This document shows positions 43,130 through 50,705 of a stretch of 64,000 bases of DNA, piece after piece; the first letter of the stretch is position 1; each line of letters opens with the position of its first letter. The position numbers and the translations under genes were made by a program. Source of the DNA: an uncultured Coriobacteriaceae bacterium (GTDB lineage Bacteria; Actinomycetota; Coriobacteriia; Coriobacteriales; Eggerthellaceae); contig CASFII010000006.1 in the NCBI GenBank assembly GCA_949294735.1, forward strand, positions 434,001 through 498,000, written 5' to 3'. The notes below the pieces were generated by a model. That model was not told the origin of the DNA. It did no database searches and worked only from the letters and a program-made list of their open reading frames with translations.

Positions 43130-43780
43130 CTACGCGTTGCGAATTCGTTCAGCCAACCATTCTGCCCAAGCCTGCACACCTTCTCCATTCGTTGCAGACA
43201 TCGGAAAAATGGGGGCGGTTGGATTCAGCTGCTTAACCGCACTTTCAAAAGCTTCTTTGTCAAAGTTGAACACGGGCATCGTGTCTACCTTGTTAAGAAT
43301 AATTGCCTCTGAAACCTGGAACACGCCAGGATATTTCAGGGGTTTGTCGTCGCCTTCGGGCACCGACAAAATCATTACCTTGGCGTTTTCACCTAAGTCG
43401 AAGTCGGTAGGACACACTAAGTTGCCTACGTTTTCCAAAATAATAAGATCAAGGCGTTCCAAATCTAAAATGTCGATAGCGCGCTTCACCATGGCGCTTT
43501 CCAGGTGGCATGCTCCACCCGTATTAATCTGAACAGCCGCAATGCCCTGAGCCTTAATCTTTTCAGCATCTACGCTGCTGGCAATGTCGCCTTCGATAAC
43601 CGCAATATTGAATTCGTCTCGCAAGGCATCAATGGTTGCCAAGATGGTAGAGGTTTTCCCAGAACCAGGGCTTGCGAGCAAATCTAATACAAATACATGG
43701 TTTTCGGCAAAACGCTTGCGCAATTCTGCTGCCAGCGTGTCATTCTTTTGCAAGATAGGTTGCTTTACATCAATCTGCAT
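43130..43780 (-). CDS. hypB: Hydrogenase nickel-incorporation GTPase HypB
   Basis: A 216-residue SIMIBI GTPase. The P-loop is LLASPGSGKTSTI near residue 34, followed by the switch region EGDIASSVDAEKI and the metal-site block INTGGACHLESAMV with Cys and His. The N-terminal CxxCGC nickel-storage motif of some HypBs is absent. It delivers nickel to NiFe hydrogenase together with HypA. The ATG follows AAGGATGCGCT, 26 bases after hypA. Confidence 0.95.
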   Translation of the reverse strand: MQIDVKQPILQKNDTLAAELRKRFAENHVFVLDLLASPGSGKTSTILATIDALRDEFNIAVIEGDIASSVDAEKIKAQGIAAVQINTGGACHLESAMVKRAIDILDLERLDLIILENVGNLVCPTDFDLGENAKVMILSVPEGDDKPLKYPGVFQVSEAIILNKVDTMPVFNFDKEAFESAVKQLNPTAPIFPMSATNGEGVQAWAEWLAERIRNA

Positions 43781-43806
43781 AGCGCATCCTTAGTCTTAAA
43801 ATCCTG

Positions 43807-44181
43807 TTAAGATTCCTGTTCGTTTGCCTCGTCTGGCAAATCTACTTCAATAGAGTCAATTTGCAATTCGCGCCCAGCAATCAATTCGGTGGCAAAGCTG
43901 CCACATTCTGGGCAGAGCATATGGAAGCGGTCGTGTTCGTATTCAGCTCCGCACTCCAAGCAACGACTGCTCGGACGAATAATCTTGATATCCAGATCGG
44001 CGTCCGCCGTAAACGGATCACCTTCTTTAAGTGCCTCGAATGCAAACACCAGGGCATCTTCAATAGCTTCAGTCATTTCGCCAACTGAAAGACTAATCTT
44101 CAAGAGCTTTTCAGCACCTGCGTTATGAGCAGCTTCAGTGGCCGCCTCCATAACGCCCGTCATAATGCCCAGTTCATGCAT
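43807..44181 (-). CDS. hypA: Hydrogenase nickel metallochaperone HypA
   Basis: A 124-residue HypA. The N-terminal MHEL motif provides the nickel site through His2. The zinc domain has CLECGAEYEHDRFHMLCPEC, the two CxxC pairs. It hands nickel to the hydrogenase large subunit with HypB. It starts 2 bases after the tatC stop, so it lies in one operon with the Tat genes. The last 25 residues are acidic. Confidence 0.95.
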   Translation of the reverse strand: MHELGIMTGVMEAATEAAHNAGAEKLLKISLSVGEMTEAIEDALVFAFEALKEGDPFTADADLDIKIIRPSSRCLECGAEYEHDRFHMLCPECGSFATELIAGRELQIDSIEVDLPDEANEQES

Positions 44182-44183
44182 AG

Positions 44184-44972
44184 TTATGCGCCATCACTTT
44201 CTTCTAGCGCCAGTTCTTCGTTTTGTTGTTTAATGCGTTTGGCGAGTACCACACGCGAAATAAGCAAGCTTACTTCGTACAAGCCAATCAAAGCGGCAAA
44301 CATCAATGCCATGGTTATCGGAGAAGCATCAGGGGTAACCATTGCCGAAAAGATAAGCAGGCCAACATAGATTTCGCGCCACATATTGCGAAGCTTCTTA
44401 TAGGGAATAACGTCGAAAATAACCAGGTAAAACACAACGAGTGGCAGTTCGAACGCTATACCAAAGCCAATTTCAAACTTGATAATGATATCAATGTAGG
44501 TAGATAAGCGTGGCTGGATGGTACCAAGCCCCGTTGCCTGGTCCGTCAACCACTGAAATGCCGGATTCAGAATGATGAGATAGCAAAATACCACGCCAAA
44601 AATGAAGAGCAAAACGCCTACTACGAAGGTCGGCATAAACCACTTGCGTTCTTTTGGCTTTAAAGCAGGCAAGAAAAACGCCAGCAACTGCCACAACACC
44701 ACTGGTGAACAGGCAACCAGCGCCGCCCAAATGGATATTTTGAAGCGCACACTAAAGGCTTCAAACGGGTCCAAAATTACCATGTCGACGGTTCCGTTTG
44801 GACCTTCTTTTAAGAATTCCTGGACGGGATCCAATAGAAACTGACCAATGGTTGGAGTAGCCATATAAAAGACAACAACCCCAATGAACAAACACGCAAC
44901 TATGCGCACTAAGCGCATGCGCAGCTCGCCCAAGTGCTCAAGAAGGGGCATACGCGCCGGACCGATAGGCAT
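44184..44972 (-). CDS. tatC: Twin-arginine translocase subunit TatC
   Basis: A 262-residue membrane protein with six helices. The N-terminal MPLLEHLGELRMRLVRIV is the conserved signal-binding start, and FRISIWAALVACSPVVLWQLLAF-like text and FEIGFGIAFELPL with its Glu are family markers. TatC binds twin-arginine signal peptides of folded cargo. It overlaps no gene and follows tatA by 3 bases. Adjacent hypAB suggests hydrogenase small subunit is a main cargo, which is inference. Confidence 0.96.
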   Translation of the reverse strand: MPIGPARMPLLEHLGELRMRLVRIVACLFIGVVVFYMATPTIGQFLLDPVQEFLKEGPNGTVDMVILDPFEAFSVRFKISIWAALVACSPVVLWQLLAFFLPALKPKERKWFMPTFVVGVLLFIFGVVFCYLIILNPAFQWLTDQATGLGTIQPRLSTYIDIIIKFEIGFGIAFELPLVVFYLVIFDVIPYKKLRNMWREIYVGLLIFSAMVTPDASPITMALMFAALIGLYEVSLLISRVVLAKRIKQQNEELALEESDGA

Positions 44973-44975
44973 AGC

Positions 44976-45755
44976 TTATTCCCCCTTCTCTTCGGTAGTA
45001 GTTTTTGCTTCAGCAGCTTTCGGATCTGCTTTGGAAGTACTTGTAGCCTTTTTGGTGGTAGCGGTTTTTGTGGTCTTTGCAGCTGGCTTTGTACCGTACA
45101 GTTCTGCAGCAGAAGGGGTTTTCTTCGCTGCGGTGGCTTTTGCGGTGCGGGTCTTAGTGGTGCCAGCCTTAGTGGCACCTGCCTTGGTGGTGTTTGTTTT
45201 AGTAGCACCCGTCTTAGCGGTGCTTGCCTTAGAGGTACTCGTTTTGGTAGCGCCCGCCTTAGCCGTGCTCTTCTTGGTGGATGGTTTGGCATCTGAAGCG
45301 TCAGCCGCTTTGTTGGCAACTGGCTTTGCAGCCTTTTCTACGCTTTCTTTCTGCGCAGCGGCAGCCTCCACTTCAGCCTTTTCGGCTGCTTCAGCTTCAG
45401 CAGCCTTCTTTGCAGCACGTTCAGCGTCATAACGAGCCTTGCGTTCGCTAAAAGATTCTGCGCGCTTACGTGCCTCACCCGCTACAGTAGCACCTGCACT
45501 GGCAGCCGTTTGGGCGGTTTCTTTTGTGGTGTTCCCCAAACTCGCCAACGCATCCAAGGGGTTCTTGAACGGATCTCCGCTTTCAGGATCATAAACTTCG
45601 GTCTTAATAACCTTCGACATTTCAGACTGGGCGTCACGAAACTTCGCAATAGCCTGACCTACTGTTTTAGCCATTGCGGGCAGTTTGTCGGGGCCGAAAA
45701 TTAGAAACCCAAACAACAGAATGAGGAATAATTCAAATCCACCAATACCAAACAA
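44976..45755 (-). CDS. tatA: TatA/TatB-type translocase subunit with a long Lys/Thr/Ala tail
   Basis: A 259-residue protein. Residues 1-22 (FGIGGFELFLILLFGFLIFG) are the membrane helix, then PDKLPAMAKTVGQAI is the amphipathic helix of TatA/B. TatB-like GIGGFE at the start and a long body argue for TatB or a dual role. The rest is low-complexity: an Ala/Glu coiled coil (residues 90-140) and a repetitive Thr-Lys-Ala tail (residues 155-240). The start is TTG at 45755 with AAAGGGGAGAGCT. No second TatA is seen in the window. Confidence 0.9.
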   Translation of the reverse strand: MFGIGGFELFLILLFGFLIFGPDKLPAMAKTVGQAIAKFRDAQSEMSKVIKTEVYDPESGDPFKNPLDALASLGNTTKETAQTAASAGATVAGEARKRAESFSERKARYDAERAAKKAAEAEAAEKAEVEAAAAQKESVEKAAKPVANKAADASDAKPSTKKSTAKAGATKTSTSKASTAKTGATKTNTTKAGATKAGTTKTRTAKATAAKKTPSAAELYGTKPAAKTTKTATTKKATSTSKADPKAAEAKTTTEEKGE

Positions 45756-45935: not shown

Positions 45936-46136
45936 TTAAGCCCCCGCGCTAAAGAACGAAAGAGCAACCGTTGGGATGCCTAGAGCCAATACCAAAATGA
46001 CGCATACCACAATGGTGAAGATCTTCTTTAGACGCTCGGAGCGCTCTTTAGCTGCCTGAGCGCGCGCTTCGCGTTCCTGAGCAGCTCTAATACGTTCTTC
46101 GCGTTGCTTTGCACTAATCTTTTGCTTGTTTGCCAT
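45936..46136 (-). CDS. Small tail-helix membrane protein
   Basis: A 66-residue protein. The first 38 residues are a highly charged Arg/Glu/Lys/Ala helix, and residues 40-60 (IFTIVVCVILVLALGIPTVA) are a single membrane helix near the C-terminus. It should lie in the membrane with its charged end in the cytoplasm. I do not recognise the family. The ATG follows AGGAGAAAGA, and it starts 15 bases after the amidohydrolase-like gene, so the two are probably co-transcribed. Confidence 0.75.
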   Translation of the reverse strand: MANKQKISAKQREERIRAAQEREARAQAAKERSERLKKIFTIVVCVILVLALGIPTVALSFFSAGA

Positions 46137-46151: not shown

Positions 46152-47507
46152 TTATTTTCTTAATTTGCTACGAATTTCAATGACATGAGCAATATTTTTT
46201 GCCACTTCAACGTCTACGTTCCATTTATTGGTTTCGTACAAAATTTTGCCGTCAACCATGGTCATAAGCACATCCGAAGCACCGCAGGTGTTGACCACGG
46301 CAGATACTGGGTCACCCGTTGGGTTTTGATGCGAACTGGAAAGGTCAACCGCAATGATGTCTGCGCATTTGCCCACTTCAAGCGTACCAATTTTGTCATC
46401 CAGGTGAAGCGCCTTCGCGCCCCCAATGGTAGCCATTTCCAGCATGCTTGCAGAATCGAGGAATTTACCTGGATTCGTTGCACGCTGAAGCATCATACCA
46501 ATACGCATTTCGCTAAAAATGTCGGTAGAATCTGTTGCCGCTGGTGAACCCGATCCCAAACCCACGTTCAAACCAGAACGCAAAAACTTTGTTACGGGAG
46601 CAACACCCATACCGAGTTGCGCATTACTGCGCGGACAGGCGGCCACTGAAACAGAGTATTCGCGAAGTTTTTTGATGTCTTCGTCATCCACGTGAACGCA
46701 ATGTATAGCCAGTACGTTTTCGCCTTCAAAAGCTCCCCAGTTCAGCGCATAGCGAACGGGCGAAGACCCCGTAGGAAGCCAAGGAGGAATTTCCATAAAC
46801 CCACGGCGCACACCTTCATTATGCAGCGAAAATACCGAAGAGCCATACTTCACAAAGTTGTATTCTTCCCTACTGCCAGCTAAAAAGACTGCCATGGGCA
46901 TCTTTTCACGTTGTGTAATCTGGGAAACCTTGGTGTACAGCGATGGATGGCAGGTATAAATTGCCGAAGGAGCCATGCCGATGGTCACGCGGCTTTCGTC
47001 GACTTCTGCGCGCCAATGCATAATGTCATTTTGCGCAGAATACAACGCATGATCTACGCGACGCTTATCCATGGCGCCCACTTCGCGATAAATAACACTG
47101 CGCAAACCAAGGCGCTGCGTAGCGGTGCACGAAGCACCAGAAACCGTCACGTCACCCACGCAGGTAATACCACAAGAAAGCGCATCTAAACCGCCCAAAA
47201 CAGCAGAAGCGAACCAATCACTTACTTCCATTTTGGTGGCGATATCAGATAGAGCAACCAGCCACGTGGTATACGGAACATCACGCAACATGCCGCGCAT
47301 AACCGAGTTTTCCAGGCTGGTGTACGTGTCTACCAGACCAGGCATCAAAGCGGCAAGCCCGAAATCTTTTACCTCTTCTTCAGGATAGCGCATAAGAAGA
47401 ATTTCAGAAACGCCGATGTCGCGAATCTTGCCATCACGCACAAGAATTGCCCCGCCCGTAATGGGTTCGGAAGTAACCGGCAAAATATATTGAGCGCGTA
47501 GAAGCAT
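46152..47507 (-). CDS. Amidohydrolase-family protein lacking metal ligands (likely non-catalytic)
   Basis: A 451-residue homologue of S-adenosylhomocysteine/methylthioadenosine deaminases. The fold is clear: MPGLVDTYTSLENSVMRG near residue 55, LAIHCVHVDDEDI near residue 267, SNAQLGMGVAPVTKFL and the C-terminal KIGTLEVGKCADIIAVD. But key residues are changed. The usual His-x-His is Tyr62-x-Ser64, the usual His of the HxxE segment is Phe208 with Gly211 for Glu, the SPH-type His is Ser181, and the Asp of TDGAAS is Gly320. Only His269 is kept. Zinc binding and hydrolysis look impossible. The start follows GGAAAGGTAAGAACT. Confidence 0.88.
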   Translation of the reverse strand: MLLRAQYILPVTSEPITGGAILVRDGKIRDIGVSEILLMRYPEEEVKDFGLAALMPGLVDTYTSLENSVMRGMLRDVPYTTWLVALSDIATKMEVSDWFASAVLGGLDALSCGITCVGDVTVSGASCTATQRLGLRSVIYREVGAMDKRRVDHALYSAQNDIMHWRAEVDESRVTIGMAPSAIYTCHPSLYTKVSQITQREKMPMAVFLAGSREEYNFVKYGSSVFSLHNEGVRRGFMEIPPWLPTGSSPVRYALNWGAFEGENVLAIHCVHVDDEDIKKLREYSVSVAACPRSNAQLGMGVAPVTKFLRSGLNVGLGSGSPAATDSTDIFSEMRIGMMLQRATNPGKFLDSASMLEMATIGGAKALHLDDKIGTLEVGKCADIIAVDLSSSHQNPTGDPVSAVVNTCGASDVLMTMVDGKILYETNKWNVDVEVAKNIAHVIEIRSKLRK

Positions 47508-47633
47508 AGTTCTTACCTTTCCATAGATTTTCCTATGATACCACCCTTTGGCACATGAAGACGGTGTACGAGGAAGCCATCAGGGAATCTTCGCGAAATT
47601 ATCTGCGGAAAAATCGGACATATGACGCATGGT

Positions 47634-47652: not shown

Positions 47653-49938
47653 GTGCAAACCCTCGATATGACATACATTCATGCGCCAGCCACCTATGAC
47701 TTCCGCGAACGTTCCATCATGTATGGTCCCGTTTCGGACATGGTGCCTTCTACCCCTATTTTCGAAATGTATCCTCTGGGGCTTACCACGTTGTGCGAAT
47801 ACCTTGAACGTCACGGTTTGCGTTCACGTATTTATAACCTCGCATCCATGATGCTCCACAAGCGAAACTTTGACGTAGAAAAGAACCTAGCAAAGCTTGA
47901 TTCTTATATGTTCGGCATCGATCTTCACTGGATGCCTCACTGCCACGGTTCAATTGAAGTTGCCAAAATCTTGAAGCGACTTCATCCAAATGTACCTATT
48001 TCATTTGGTGGTCTTTCTTCAAGCATCTTCCACGAAGATCTTATTCGCTACGATTGCATTGATTATGTTTTCCGTGGCGACAGCACCGAAGAACCCATGC
48101 GGATGCTTGTCGAACGCGTTAGCCGCGCAGCACGCACGCATACACCCGTGGGTGATTTGTCTGATATTCCTAATCTAACCTGGAAAGATGCCGAAGGCGG
48201 CATTCATATTAATGCGCTTTCGTGGGTACCTGACGACATGAACGCTATTTCGCTTGACTACGCCTATCCCATGAAGGGTGTTTTGCGCCATCACGACATG
48301 ACTAGCTACCTGCCTATGAAGGGGTGGCTGTCTTATCCGGTGACCGCAAGCCTTACCTGTCGTGGTTGTGCGCGCAACTGCGCCACCTGCGGCGGAAGCG
48401 CTTATGCTTTCAAGAACCACTTCGGTCGCCGTTGCGTAGCATGGCGCGACCCTGCCCTGTTGATTCGCGACATCGAAAACGTACAGAATCATGTTTGGGG
48501 TCCCATTTTTGTTTTGAATGACTTTTTGCAAGCAGGCGAAGATTACACGCATCGTTTTATTACGGGACTAAAAGGCAAGCTGAAAAACCCTATTGGCTTC
48601 GAGTTCTTCGGTCCACCGCCAGGGGGTAATGACTTCTACAACCTGCTGGACAAAAACCTTGAAAGCTGGTCGGTAGAAATTTCCGCCGAAAGTCACGACG
48701 ACGACGTGCGCAAGGCGTTCGGAAAAGGTCACTACACTATGCGCGAACTGGAAGACACCATAGTGGATGCACTTTCGCACAAGAATTGTGACCGCTTCGA
48801 CCTGTATTTCATGACGGGTATCCCCAAACAAACCGCTGACAGCGTACGTGAAACAGGAAAATACGTGCAGCACTTATACGAACGCGTCGGGTACGACCCG
48901 CGCTTGGTGGTTATGATTTCACCCATGGCGCCGTTTTTGGACGTTGGCTCTATTGCGTTCGACAACCCTGAGGCCTACGGCTACAAATTGCGCGCCCGCA
49001 CGTTTGAAGAACATCGTGAACGCATGATTCTGCCTTCTTGGAAGCACATCATGAACTACGAAAGCGTCTACATGAACGCTGACGAAATGGTGGACGCCAC
49101 CTACGATGCTGCGCTGGAAATTAACCGCGTCAAGGGAGCCCACGGCATTTTGGATGCCACCATGGCGGAAAACGTTGATAAGAACATTAAGCAAGCGCGC
49201 GAACAGATGAATCGCTTGGACGATGTGCTACGTAATGGCACCGGGCGCATAGACGCCAGGTTGGCCAGCTTAAAAGAAGAATTCGAACGTCTATCCGAAA
49301 ACACGGTTGCAGAGAAAAGTGAGCTTAACTGGGCATTTAAGATGAAGCCAACCCATGTAGGCCACCTCGCAAAACTTTGGCTCACCAATGAACCGGCGAA
49401 CTTTGCTGCCCATGCTTCAGGAAAATGGCGCGGGGCTGGAAGTGACCTGAAATATTCCGACCAGGTAAACGGTGTTAAAGCACCCGCCTGGAATGAAGAC
49501 GGCACGCCGCGTTGTACCTTTAAGGGCGTCGTAACCGACGGTATGGGCGACGGCCGCGCTTTGGCCGACGAACAGGGTGAACAAGTTGCGGCATATGGCA
49601 GTGTTGTGGCGCCGGGATTTTCGCGCACGAATACGAATACCGCCTTTGATGCGGCTAATCATGATTTGAAGGCCGGTCGCGCTGGTACCGCCATTCATGA
49701 AGGTGAAGCGGCCGCCATTCCTGAAAGCGCCCTGCGAACCGTTGAGCCTGATCCTTTGCTGGAACAGATGATTCGCGAAGAAAAAGAACGCGAAGACGCC
49801 GAGACGTTCGCAAAACGTTTGGGTGTGGCAAGTGTGCATGCGCCTCGCAGTGCAAAAGGATTTAAGGGTGCTGGCGGTACGGCAGGTGCGCGCGACGCTT
49901 TCCGTTTAGACAAACTGCGCAGTCGTAAAAAGAAATAA
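47653..49938 (+). CDS. B12-binding domain radical SAM protein
   Basis: A 761-residue protein. Residues 40-190 form a B12-binding-type Rossmann domain (YPLGLTTLCEYLERHG, VPISFGGLSSSIF, YVFRGDSTEEPM). The radical SAM core follows with CARNCATCGGSAY as the CxxxCxxC cluster motif and FVLNDFLQAGEDY, WSVEISAESHDD and YFMTGIPKQTAD as barrel strands. It resembles the TIGR04190 family. The last 220 residues are a charged, low-complexity tail ending in RSRKKK. Substrate unknown. I take the GTG at 47653; ATG at 47668 is an alternative. Neither has a ribosome site. Confidence 0.88.
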   Translation: MQTLDMTYIHAPATYDFRERSIMYGPVSDMVPSTPIFEMYPLGLTTLCEYLERHGLRSRIYNLASMMLHKRNFDVEKNLAKLDSYMFGIDLHWMPHCHGSIEVAKILKRLHPNVPISFGGLSSSIFHEDLIRYDCIDYVFRGDSTEEPMRMLVERVSRAARTHTPVGDLSDIPNLTWKDAEGGIHINALSWVPDDMNAISLDYAYPMKGVLRHHDMTSYLPMKGWLSYPVTASLTCRGCARNCATCGGSAYAFKNHFGRRCVAWRDPALLIRDIENVQNHVWGPIFVLNDFLQAGEDYTHRFITGLKGKLKNPIGFEFFGPPPGGNDFYNLLDKNLESWSVEISAESHDDDVRKAFGKGHYTMRELEDTIVDALSHKNCDRFDLYFMTGIPKQTADSVRETGKYVQHLYERVGYDPRLVVMISPMAPFLDVGSIAFDNPEAYGYKLRARTFEEHRERMILPSWKHIMNYESVYMNADEMVDATYDAALEINRVKGAHGILDATMAENVDKNIKQAREQMNRLDDVLRNGTGRIDARLASLKEEFERLSENTVAEKSELNWAFKMKPTHVGHLAKLWLTNEPANFAAHASGKWRGAGSDLKYSDQVNGVKAPAWNEDGTPRCTFKGVVTDGMGDGRALADEQGEQVAAYGSVVAPGFSRTNTNTAFDAANHDLKAGRAGTAIHEGEAAAIPESALRTVEPDPLLEQMIREEKEREDAETFAKRLGVASVHAPRSAKGFKGAGGTAGARDAFRLDKLRSRKKK

Positions 49939-49958: not shown

Positions 49959-50705
49959 TTATTCTGATGGCTTATGGGCTACATGAACTGCGGCAATTCC
50001 ACCCGTATAGTTTTTCCAACTGATGTTTTCGAAACCCGCTTCACGCATCATCTGCGCCAAGTGCTCTTGATCAGGAAATGCCTTAATGGACTTCGAAAGA
50101 TACACGAAGCCGCTTTTGTCACCCGTAATAAGCCCGCCCCAAAATGGAATCAGGTGCTTTAGATAAAAGTTGTACAAGCCGCGCCATACTGCATTAGGCG
50201 GCGTGGAAAATTCCAGGCACACTAGCGCACCACCAGGTTTGAGCACGCGATACATTTCTGCCAGAGCGCGCGGTCTGTCGGGCATGTTACGAATACCATA
50301 CGCCACGGTGACTGCGTCGTAAGAATTGTCTTCATAGGGAATGTTCTGGGCGTCCACCACTTCGAAGGTGACGAGCACACCATCTGCAGCACCTGCCACA
50401 TAGTGAGCCTCTGCCACTTCAAGCATCTCAGGAACCAAATCTGTACATTGAATGTGAGCGGGATGTTTTGCGCGGGCAACCGCAAAAGTTACATCCCCTG
50501 TTCCGCCTGCAATGTCAAGCACGTTGTCCGTTGCCTTAATAGGTGCTTGCTTCATCATGCCGTGAAGCCACGCCTTATAAGCGCCAAAACTAGAGACGGC
50601 ATTGAAGCGTTCGTACTTCTTCGCAATTTGCGAAAAAATACTCTTTACACGTTCGGAAGAAAGTTCAGCAGGAGCTTCTTTGCCTGTTGCAGTGTCAATA
50701 CTCAA
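49959..50705 (-). CDS. menG: Demethylmenaquinone methyltransferase
   Basis: A 248-residue SAM-dependent methyltransferase of the UbiE/MenG family. The signature YGIRNMPDRPRALAEMYRVL and LDIAGGTGDVTFAVA are diagnostic, and the N-terminal IFSQIAKKYERFNAVSSFGAYKAW is the family start. It methylates demethylmenaquinone, the last step of menaquinone synthesis, so the cell has a menaquinone respiratory chain. Start is TTG at 50705 with GAGGTG. The family lacks the ubiquinone-only context here. It is convergent with the radical SAM gene. Confidence 0.95.
   Translation of the reverse strand: MSIDTATGKEAPAELSSERVKSIFSQIAKKYERFNAVSSFGAYKAWLHGMMKQAPIKATDNVLDIAGGTGDVTFAVARAKHPAHIQCTDLVPEMLEVAEAHYVAGAADGVLVTFEVVDAQNIPYEDNSYDAVTVAYGIRNMPDRPRALAEMYRVLKPGGALVCLEFSTPPNAVWRGLYNFYLKHLIPFWGGLITGDKSGFVYLSKSIKAFPDQEHLAQMMREAGFENISWKNYTGGIAAVHVAHKPSE

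Follow-up and report, generated by a model that had tools for sequence, protein, structure and literature searches.

The window, a stretch of 64,000 nucleotides, comes from a 1.34-Mb MAG (G000) that is 86% complete, belongs to the Eggerthellaceae as judged by named hits and is the single sampled genome of its genus. On its reverse strand lies an amidohydrolase-like gene whose features and neighbors are collected in Table 1. In the original prediction, the gene was said to have an open frame and a good ribosome site, and both were confirmed: the open reading frame encodes 451 amino acids, starts with ATG and is preceded by a Shine-Dalgarno-like motif. The gene order is menG, a divergent radical SAM gene of the TIGR04190 family, the amidohydrolase, a gene for a 66-residue membrane protein, tatB, tatC, hypA, hypB, and nadE. 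Among the loci with conserved neighbors, the small protein is encoded directly downstream in 102, TatB occurs in 126, TatC in 108, MenG in 87, and the radical SAM protein in 41, the counts for the outer genes being lower bounds since many loci are too short to reach them. In environmental relatives, the block additionally comprises Rex, a polyprenyl synthase, RseC, and a membrane TPR protein. The TIGR04190 protein, of a family of unknown function, has a C-terminal extension beyond the model; it is about 78 to 93% identical between the Eggerthellaceae loci having its gene and is absent from most Eggerthellaceae genomes tested.

Table 1. Features of the amidohydrolase locus (window positions; the last row gives positions on two outgroup loci, L200 and L201)
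Feature	Position	Strand	Basis or remark
Probable amidohydrolase-fold pseudoenzyme, 451 aa	46152..47507	-	1:1 orthologue across Coriobacteriia; AlphaFold pLDDT 92.2, pTM 0.92
GGAAAGG, Shine-Dalgarno-like, 5' of the amidohydrolase ATG	47516..47522	-	Sequence
Former HxH metal motif, now Tyr62-Thr63-Ser64 (TAC ACC AGC)	47316..47324	-	Alignment, codons
Ser181 replacing the SPH-type His (TCG)	46965..46967	-	His missing in all gut-order members
Phe208 replacing the HxxE metal His (TTT)	46884..46886	-	Alignment, codon
Gly211 replacing the HxxE Glu (GGC)	46875..46877	-	HLAGS nearly fixed in subfamily; Glu in most outgroups
His269, sole metal ligand retained	46701..46703	-	Alignment, codon
Gly320 replacing the catalytic/metal Asp (GGT)	46548..46550	-	Alignment, codon
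66-aa single-membrane-span protein	45936..46136	-	15 bp downstream of amidohydrolase
tatB, next conserved gene	44976..45755	-	Profile match, conserved neighborhood
tatC	44184..44972	-	Conserved neighborhood, genome search
hypA (43807-44181), hypB (43130-43780)	43130..44181	-	Named from sequence and conserved neighborhood
menG/ubiE-type methyltransferase	49959..50705	-	TIGR01934 above cut-off; near the gene in 87 loci
TIGR04190 B12-binding radical SAM protein, divergent neighbor	47653..49938	+	584 bits, cut-off 500
Full-site amidohydrolases in mqn operons	L200:5312-6619; L201:4733-6001		Gene context

The 66-residue protein is charged and has a membrane helix (KIFTIVVCVILVLALGIPTVALS) that is near-invariant across the 102 Coriobacteriia loci. 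In sister lineages, its slot is occupied by a membrane TPR protein of 190 to 230 residues; judging by sequence and position, the small protein appears to derive from it by shortening and to have a conserved function of its own. Cotranscription with this small gene had been proposed; the shared strand, the short spacing, and the conserved arrangement agree with it, but the tie is weaker than suggested, since the small gene persists in five of the six loci from which the amidohydrolase has been deleted. This rules out the 66-residue protein as an obligatory partner. Co-occurrence is uninformative about a Tat partner, tatC being present in all 38 genomes searched.

The 451-residue protein belongs to the amidohydrolase superfamily (Pfam Amidohydro_1, PF01979, 136.7 bits against a cut-off of 25). 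Its AlphaFold model, built with 64 aligned homologues, has a single low-pLDDT stretch (residues 229 to 239) and superposes on zinc-dependent MTA/SAH-type deaminases with Z scores of 50 to 52.6 and an rmsd of 1.9 to 2.0 Å over 420 residues. The model forms a closed TIM barrel of the TRZ/ATZ type, and the matches at the top of the Foldseek and VIA tables, as listed, are all catalytic amidohydrolases. The fold is thus predicted to be intact, as had been proposed.

The active site is largely gone. Residues were mapped by alignment with 170 homologues and with the canonical deaminase of the same genome (contig 4, L046). Four of the five metal ligands are replaced (H62 by Tyr, H64 by Ser, H208 by Phe, and D320 by Gly), as are the catalytic residues H181 (Ser) and E211 (Gly), so that the deaminase site made up of HxH, HxxE, a further His, and Asp is missing, with H269 as its sole remnant. 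Every residue named in the original prediction (Tyr62, Ser64, Phe208, Gly211, Ser181, and Gly320) stands in the correct alignment column. Two refinements apply: the metal site was called erased although one ligand, H269, is still there and had gone unmentioned, and the six losses, all of them present, do not share one origin, S181 and G211 being older changes not particular to this protein. The losses at H62, H64, H208, and D320, in contrast, fall on or near the window protein's own branch; reaching TAC, AGC, TTT, and GGT from CAY, CAY, CAY, and GAY takes at least six nucleotide changes. A mere shift of the ligands to other positions is ruled out, as no displaced ligand is seen across the 171 aligned sequences. 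Furthermore, the damage is concentrated at the site, with four of five ligands lost against none of 58 other positions conserved at ≥97% (Fisher P = 8e-6). Having lost conserved catalytic residues within a predicted intact fold, the protein is a probable pseudoenzyme.

Orthologues, in syntenic positions, were found in 114 of 138 Eggerthellaceae genomes and in 155 of 298 genomes of the class, and further ones occur in other Actinomycetota, in sister groups of the Coriobacteriia. Our trees were computed with FastTree only, from 171 distinct sequences with six canonical paralogues as the outgroup. Members outside the subfamily, from other actinobacterial families, carry the complete canonical site in the alignment (HxH, H181, HxxE, H269, and D320; L189, L190, L191, L192, L194 to L196, L200, and L201), and by sequence comparison, these site-complete relatives mark the ancestral state. 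The HxxE glutamate is absent from essentially the whole subfamily, where it is nearly always Gly (HLAGS), which fits a loss at the subfamily base or shortly before, the number of changes not being fixed by parsimony. His181 is retained by most sampled non-gut Coriobacteriia and absent from all gut-order members; on the alignment, it was lost at the base of the gut order.

The metal ligands behave differently. Among the 161 subfamily members, all five are complete in 103 and the set is broken in 58. On a tree built without the ligand columns, the intact and broken states change 15 times (13 to 18 in 60 bootstraps), against 50 with random labels, and as read from these trees, the metal ligands appear to have been lost independently about 15 times among relatives of the window protein. 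By a count combining genome and alignment results, a broken site occurs in about half of the 41 Eggerthellaceae genera that have the gene. On the proposed check for clade-wide loss, the loss of E211 is essentially subfamily wide and that of H181 gut-order wide, whereas the metal ligands were lost patchily in many lineages. Orthologues that retain the site, which had been named as evidence against the prediction, do exist, the closest ones being 72 to 73% identical to the window protein with all five metal ligands kept. They do not restore the site in the window protein; the losses are lineage specific and recur in many lineages. Which sequence is the immediate sister of the window sequence is weakly supported (0.59; a wholly intact sister in 73% of bootstraps), so a neighboring lineage may have one of these losses in common with it. 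Elsewhere in the tree, a double His-to-Arg replacement at positions 64 and 208 (HRRHD) has arisen convergently in about three separate lineages (L009, L074, and L078; the L082 group; and L040 and L135).

A kinship with SAH/MTA deaminases had been proposed; the flanking fold matches, but these enzymes are not quite the right parent, as the protein scores far below every NCBIfam deaminase cut-off (PRK09045, the best, 219.5 against 540 bits; PRK07228, 192.4 against 522; PRK15493, 123.7 against 779) and some of its full-site relatives sit in futalosine-menaquinone operons. The score against the aminofutalosine deaminase MqnX is also below its cut-off (PRK08418, 132.6 against 320 bits), and the profile match to MqnX (7lkj) is near full length (E = 1.5e-29). 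Two outgroup genomes have an additional copy with the full site, encoded in an operon together with MqnA, either MqnC or MqnE, and a nucleoside phosphorylase. From their sequence and context, the L200 and L201 copies are a candidate group of aminofutalosine deaminases scoring under the present NCBIfam threshold; among solved structures, the L200 copy has its best relative in the uncharacterized Deinococcus protein DR_0824 (2imr). Since full-site copies sit in mqn operons, and given the similarity, the ancestor was likely an aminofutalosine-deaminase-like enzyme.

The link to quinones in present-day genomes is loose. UbiE/MenG tracks the gene (20 of 22 genomes with it against 6 of 16 without it, P = 0.001). 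The genome containing the window has MenD and yields no PF02621 (MqnA/MqnD) match, so the futalosine pathway was not recovered in this 86% complete assembly. Across genomes, the gene accompanies either the Men route or MqnA/MqnD-type genes (PF02621), or occurs where both are missing, and the loss of ligands does not track the route used, which rules out, by co-occurrence, a strict menaquinone-pathway enzyme.

We favor, with a probability of about two in three, the explanation that the protein is a conserved pseudoenzyme derived by ordered site loss from an aminofutalosine-deaminase-like ancestor, with a selected role that would be noncatalytic and older than the metal losses. The ancestor would have been an amidohydrolase encoded in a quinone gene cluster (Rex, UbiE, polyprenyl synthase, TatB/TatC, and HypA/HypB). 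The proton-shuttling HxxE glutamate would have disappeared first, at or near the subfamily base, followed by the substrate histidine H181 in the gut order and finally by some or most metal ligands in some 15 separate lineages, including that of the window. The selected function would predate the metal losses because otherwise each of about 15 lineages would have had to find a noncatalytic role of its own. Most likely, the closed barrel with its pocket-mouth residues would bind a quinone- or nucleoside-type metabolite, or a partner protein, and the protein might stabilize or regulate its bound partner as pseudo-dihydroorotase does with aspartate transcarbamoylase; it could also be an assembly partner in the menaquinone/Tat/Hyp gene cluster. 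Judging by the secondary structure of the model, E66, D119, and R293 appear to lie where the barrel strands end on their C-terminal side, and they are kept in 97%, 98%, and 84% of the ligand-lost members, respectively. All three, together with E142 and C291, are in place in the window protein. This conservation after ligand loss favors the view that a ligand or partner still engages the pocket, and we infer that ligand binding or regulation, as originally suggested, may be the function of the 451-residue protein.

The same residues bear on the alternative that the protein is a pure assembly partner, which holds no ligand in its pocket and persists solely as a structural subunit within another enzyme. 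The metal-site positions do accept many unrelated residues, depending on the lineage (Y, F, R, W, T, A, P, N, and D), the protein as a whole is very highly conserved (with 19 columns invariant and more than 50 near-invariant), and pseudo-dihydroorotase in the Pseudomonas aspartate transcarbamoylase is a precedent (PMC7053772). A ligand-free pocket, however, does not account for the conserved pocket mouth, and no co-conserved partner gene was found: tatC is universal, and the small membrane gene survives alone. We regard this alternative as possible though improbable.

It is quite unlikely that the protein is still an enzyme, with a metal-free or differently built active site and changed chemistry, possibly relying on E66, E142, R293, and H269/H272. 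The conservation of pocket residues would suit such an enzyme, as would the recurrent His-to-Arg changes at positions 64 and 208 in several lineages, in which Arg possibly stands in for the positive charge of the metal. But the proton-shuttle Glu is gone as well (G211), the window protein has no Arg at either position, the replacements vary between lineages, and the alignment shows no shifted ligands.

Several observations indicate that the gene is maintained by selection. The window protein keeps all 58 nonligand positions that are conserved at ≥97% among intact members, and its differences from the nearest relative fall 99/55/260 at codon positions 1/2/3, synonymous divergence (dS) from the nearest relatives being saturated. 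By pairwise Nei-Gojobori estimates, median dN/dS is 0.03 to 0.22 in genera whose members have all lost ligands, as low as in intact genera (0.02 to 0.22), and no premature stop occurs among the family matches listed. Purifying selection after the loss is hence seen in the ligand-lost genera and, for the window branch, indirectly through the 58 kept sites. These results bear out the earlier view that the gene is not simply decaying. In addition, the canonical deaminase paralogue keeps all its ligands in 21 of 21 genomes, whereas the window-type protein is broken in 12 of the same 21 (P = 5e-5), which makes the ligand loss peculiar to this family rather than to the genomes. A relaxed gene on its way out of a small genome, its function no longer needed, is the least likely explanation, even though 24 of the 138 family genomes give no match, with clean deletions, and most species of one genus (g65) lack the gene and the copies present there are ligand lost. 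Six inspected genomes (L209 to L214) have a clean deletion of the gene next to retained menG and tat genes, tatB among them; such deletions weigh against a vital role, and the gene is dispensable in several lineages. What the data support directly is that the fold is predicted to be intact, that the site is lost, that related genera show purifying selection after their losses, and that all else is conserved.

For the family across the class, we lean toward a course in which, at one syntenic locus, a noncatalytic function arose in a working metalloenzyme whose active site was then dismantled in order, from the proton-shuttle Glu through the substrate His to the metal ligands, these last in about 15 independent events; versions with the site intact, half dismantled, and almost fully erased would all survive today. 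Searching titles and abstracts on amidohydrolase pseudoenzymes, Eggerthella/Coriobacteria amidohydrolases, and futalosine/menaquinone routes, with few subscription journals covered, we found no study of this family. Pseudoenzymes with the amidohydrolase fold have been described before; what appears new is this family and the repeated, ordered dismantling of its site. If named by homology, such proteins would be labeled hydrolases or deaminases and thereby counted wrongly as enzymes in about half of the genera of the Eggerthellaceae, common gut bacteria included. Moreover, members at this one locus range from full-site enzymes to an erased site, a natural series replicated independently about 15 times, and comparing members at each stage lets one test directly whether a second function precedes the loss of catalysis.

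Known systems place the family in context. With the MTA/SAH (5'-deoxyadenosine) deaminases of the TRZ/ATZ type (4f0s, 4gbd, and 3lnp; PRK09045 and PRK07228), the window protein shares the whole fold (Z score, 52.6; rmsd, 1.9 Å over 420 residues) at 25 to 27% identity, but it lacks four of the five metal ligands, the HxxE Glu, and the SPH His and falls below every curated cut-off. MqnX is matched over nearly its full length, and full-site relatives lie beside mqnA/mqnC/mqnE, whereas the window protein scores below the family cut-off in a genome that uses MenD and has no MqnA/MqnD. Among the pseudo-dihydroorotases (Pseudomonas aspartate transcarbamoylase and the fungal ura2 type), the Pseudomonas protein is a zinc-less amidohydrolase needed for aspartate transcarbamoylase activity (PMC7053772). 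The pseudo-dihydroorotases share with our family the amidohydrolase fold, the loss of zinc ligands, and retention for a noncatalytic task, which for our family is probable; the window family differs in belonging to another branch of the superfamily, in having no known partner, and in the recurrence of the loss about 15 times within one family. In the Dis3L2/Ssd1 pseudonucleases, active sites were lost repeatedly and independently after a second function had arisen (PMC8097288). Those proteins are eukaryotic RNases of an unrelated fold with at least four losses, but the evolutionary pattern is the same.
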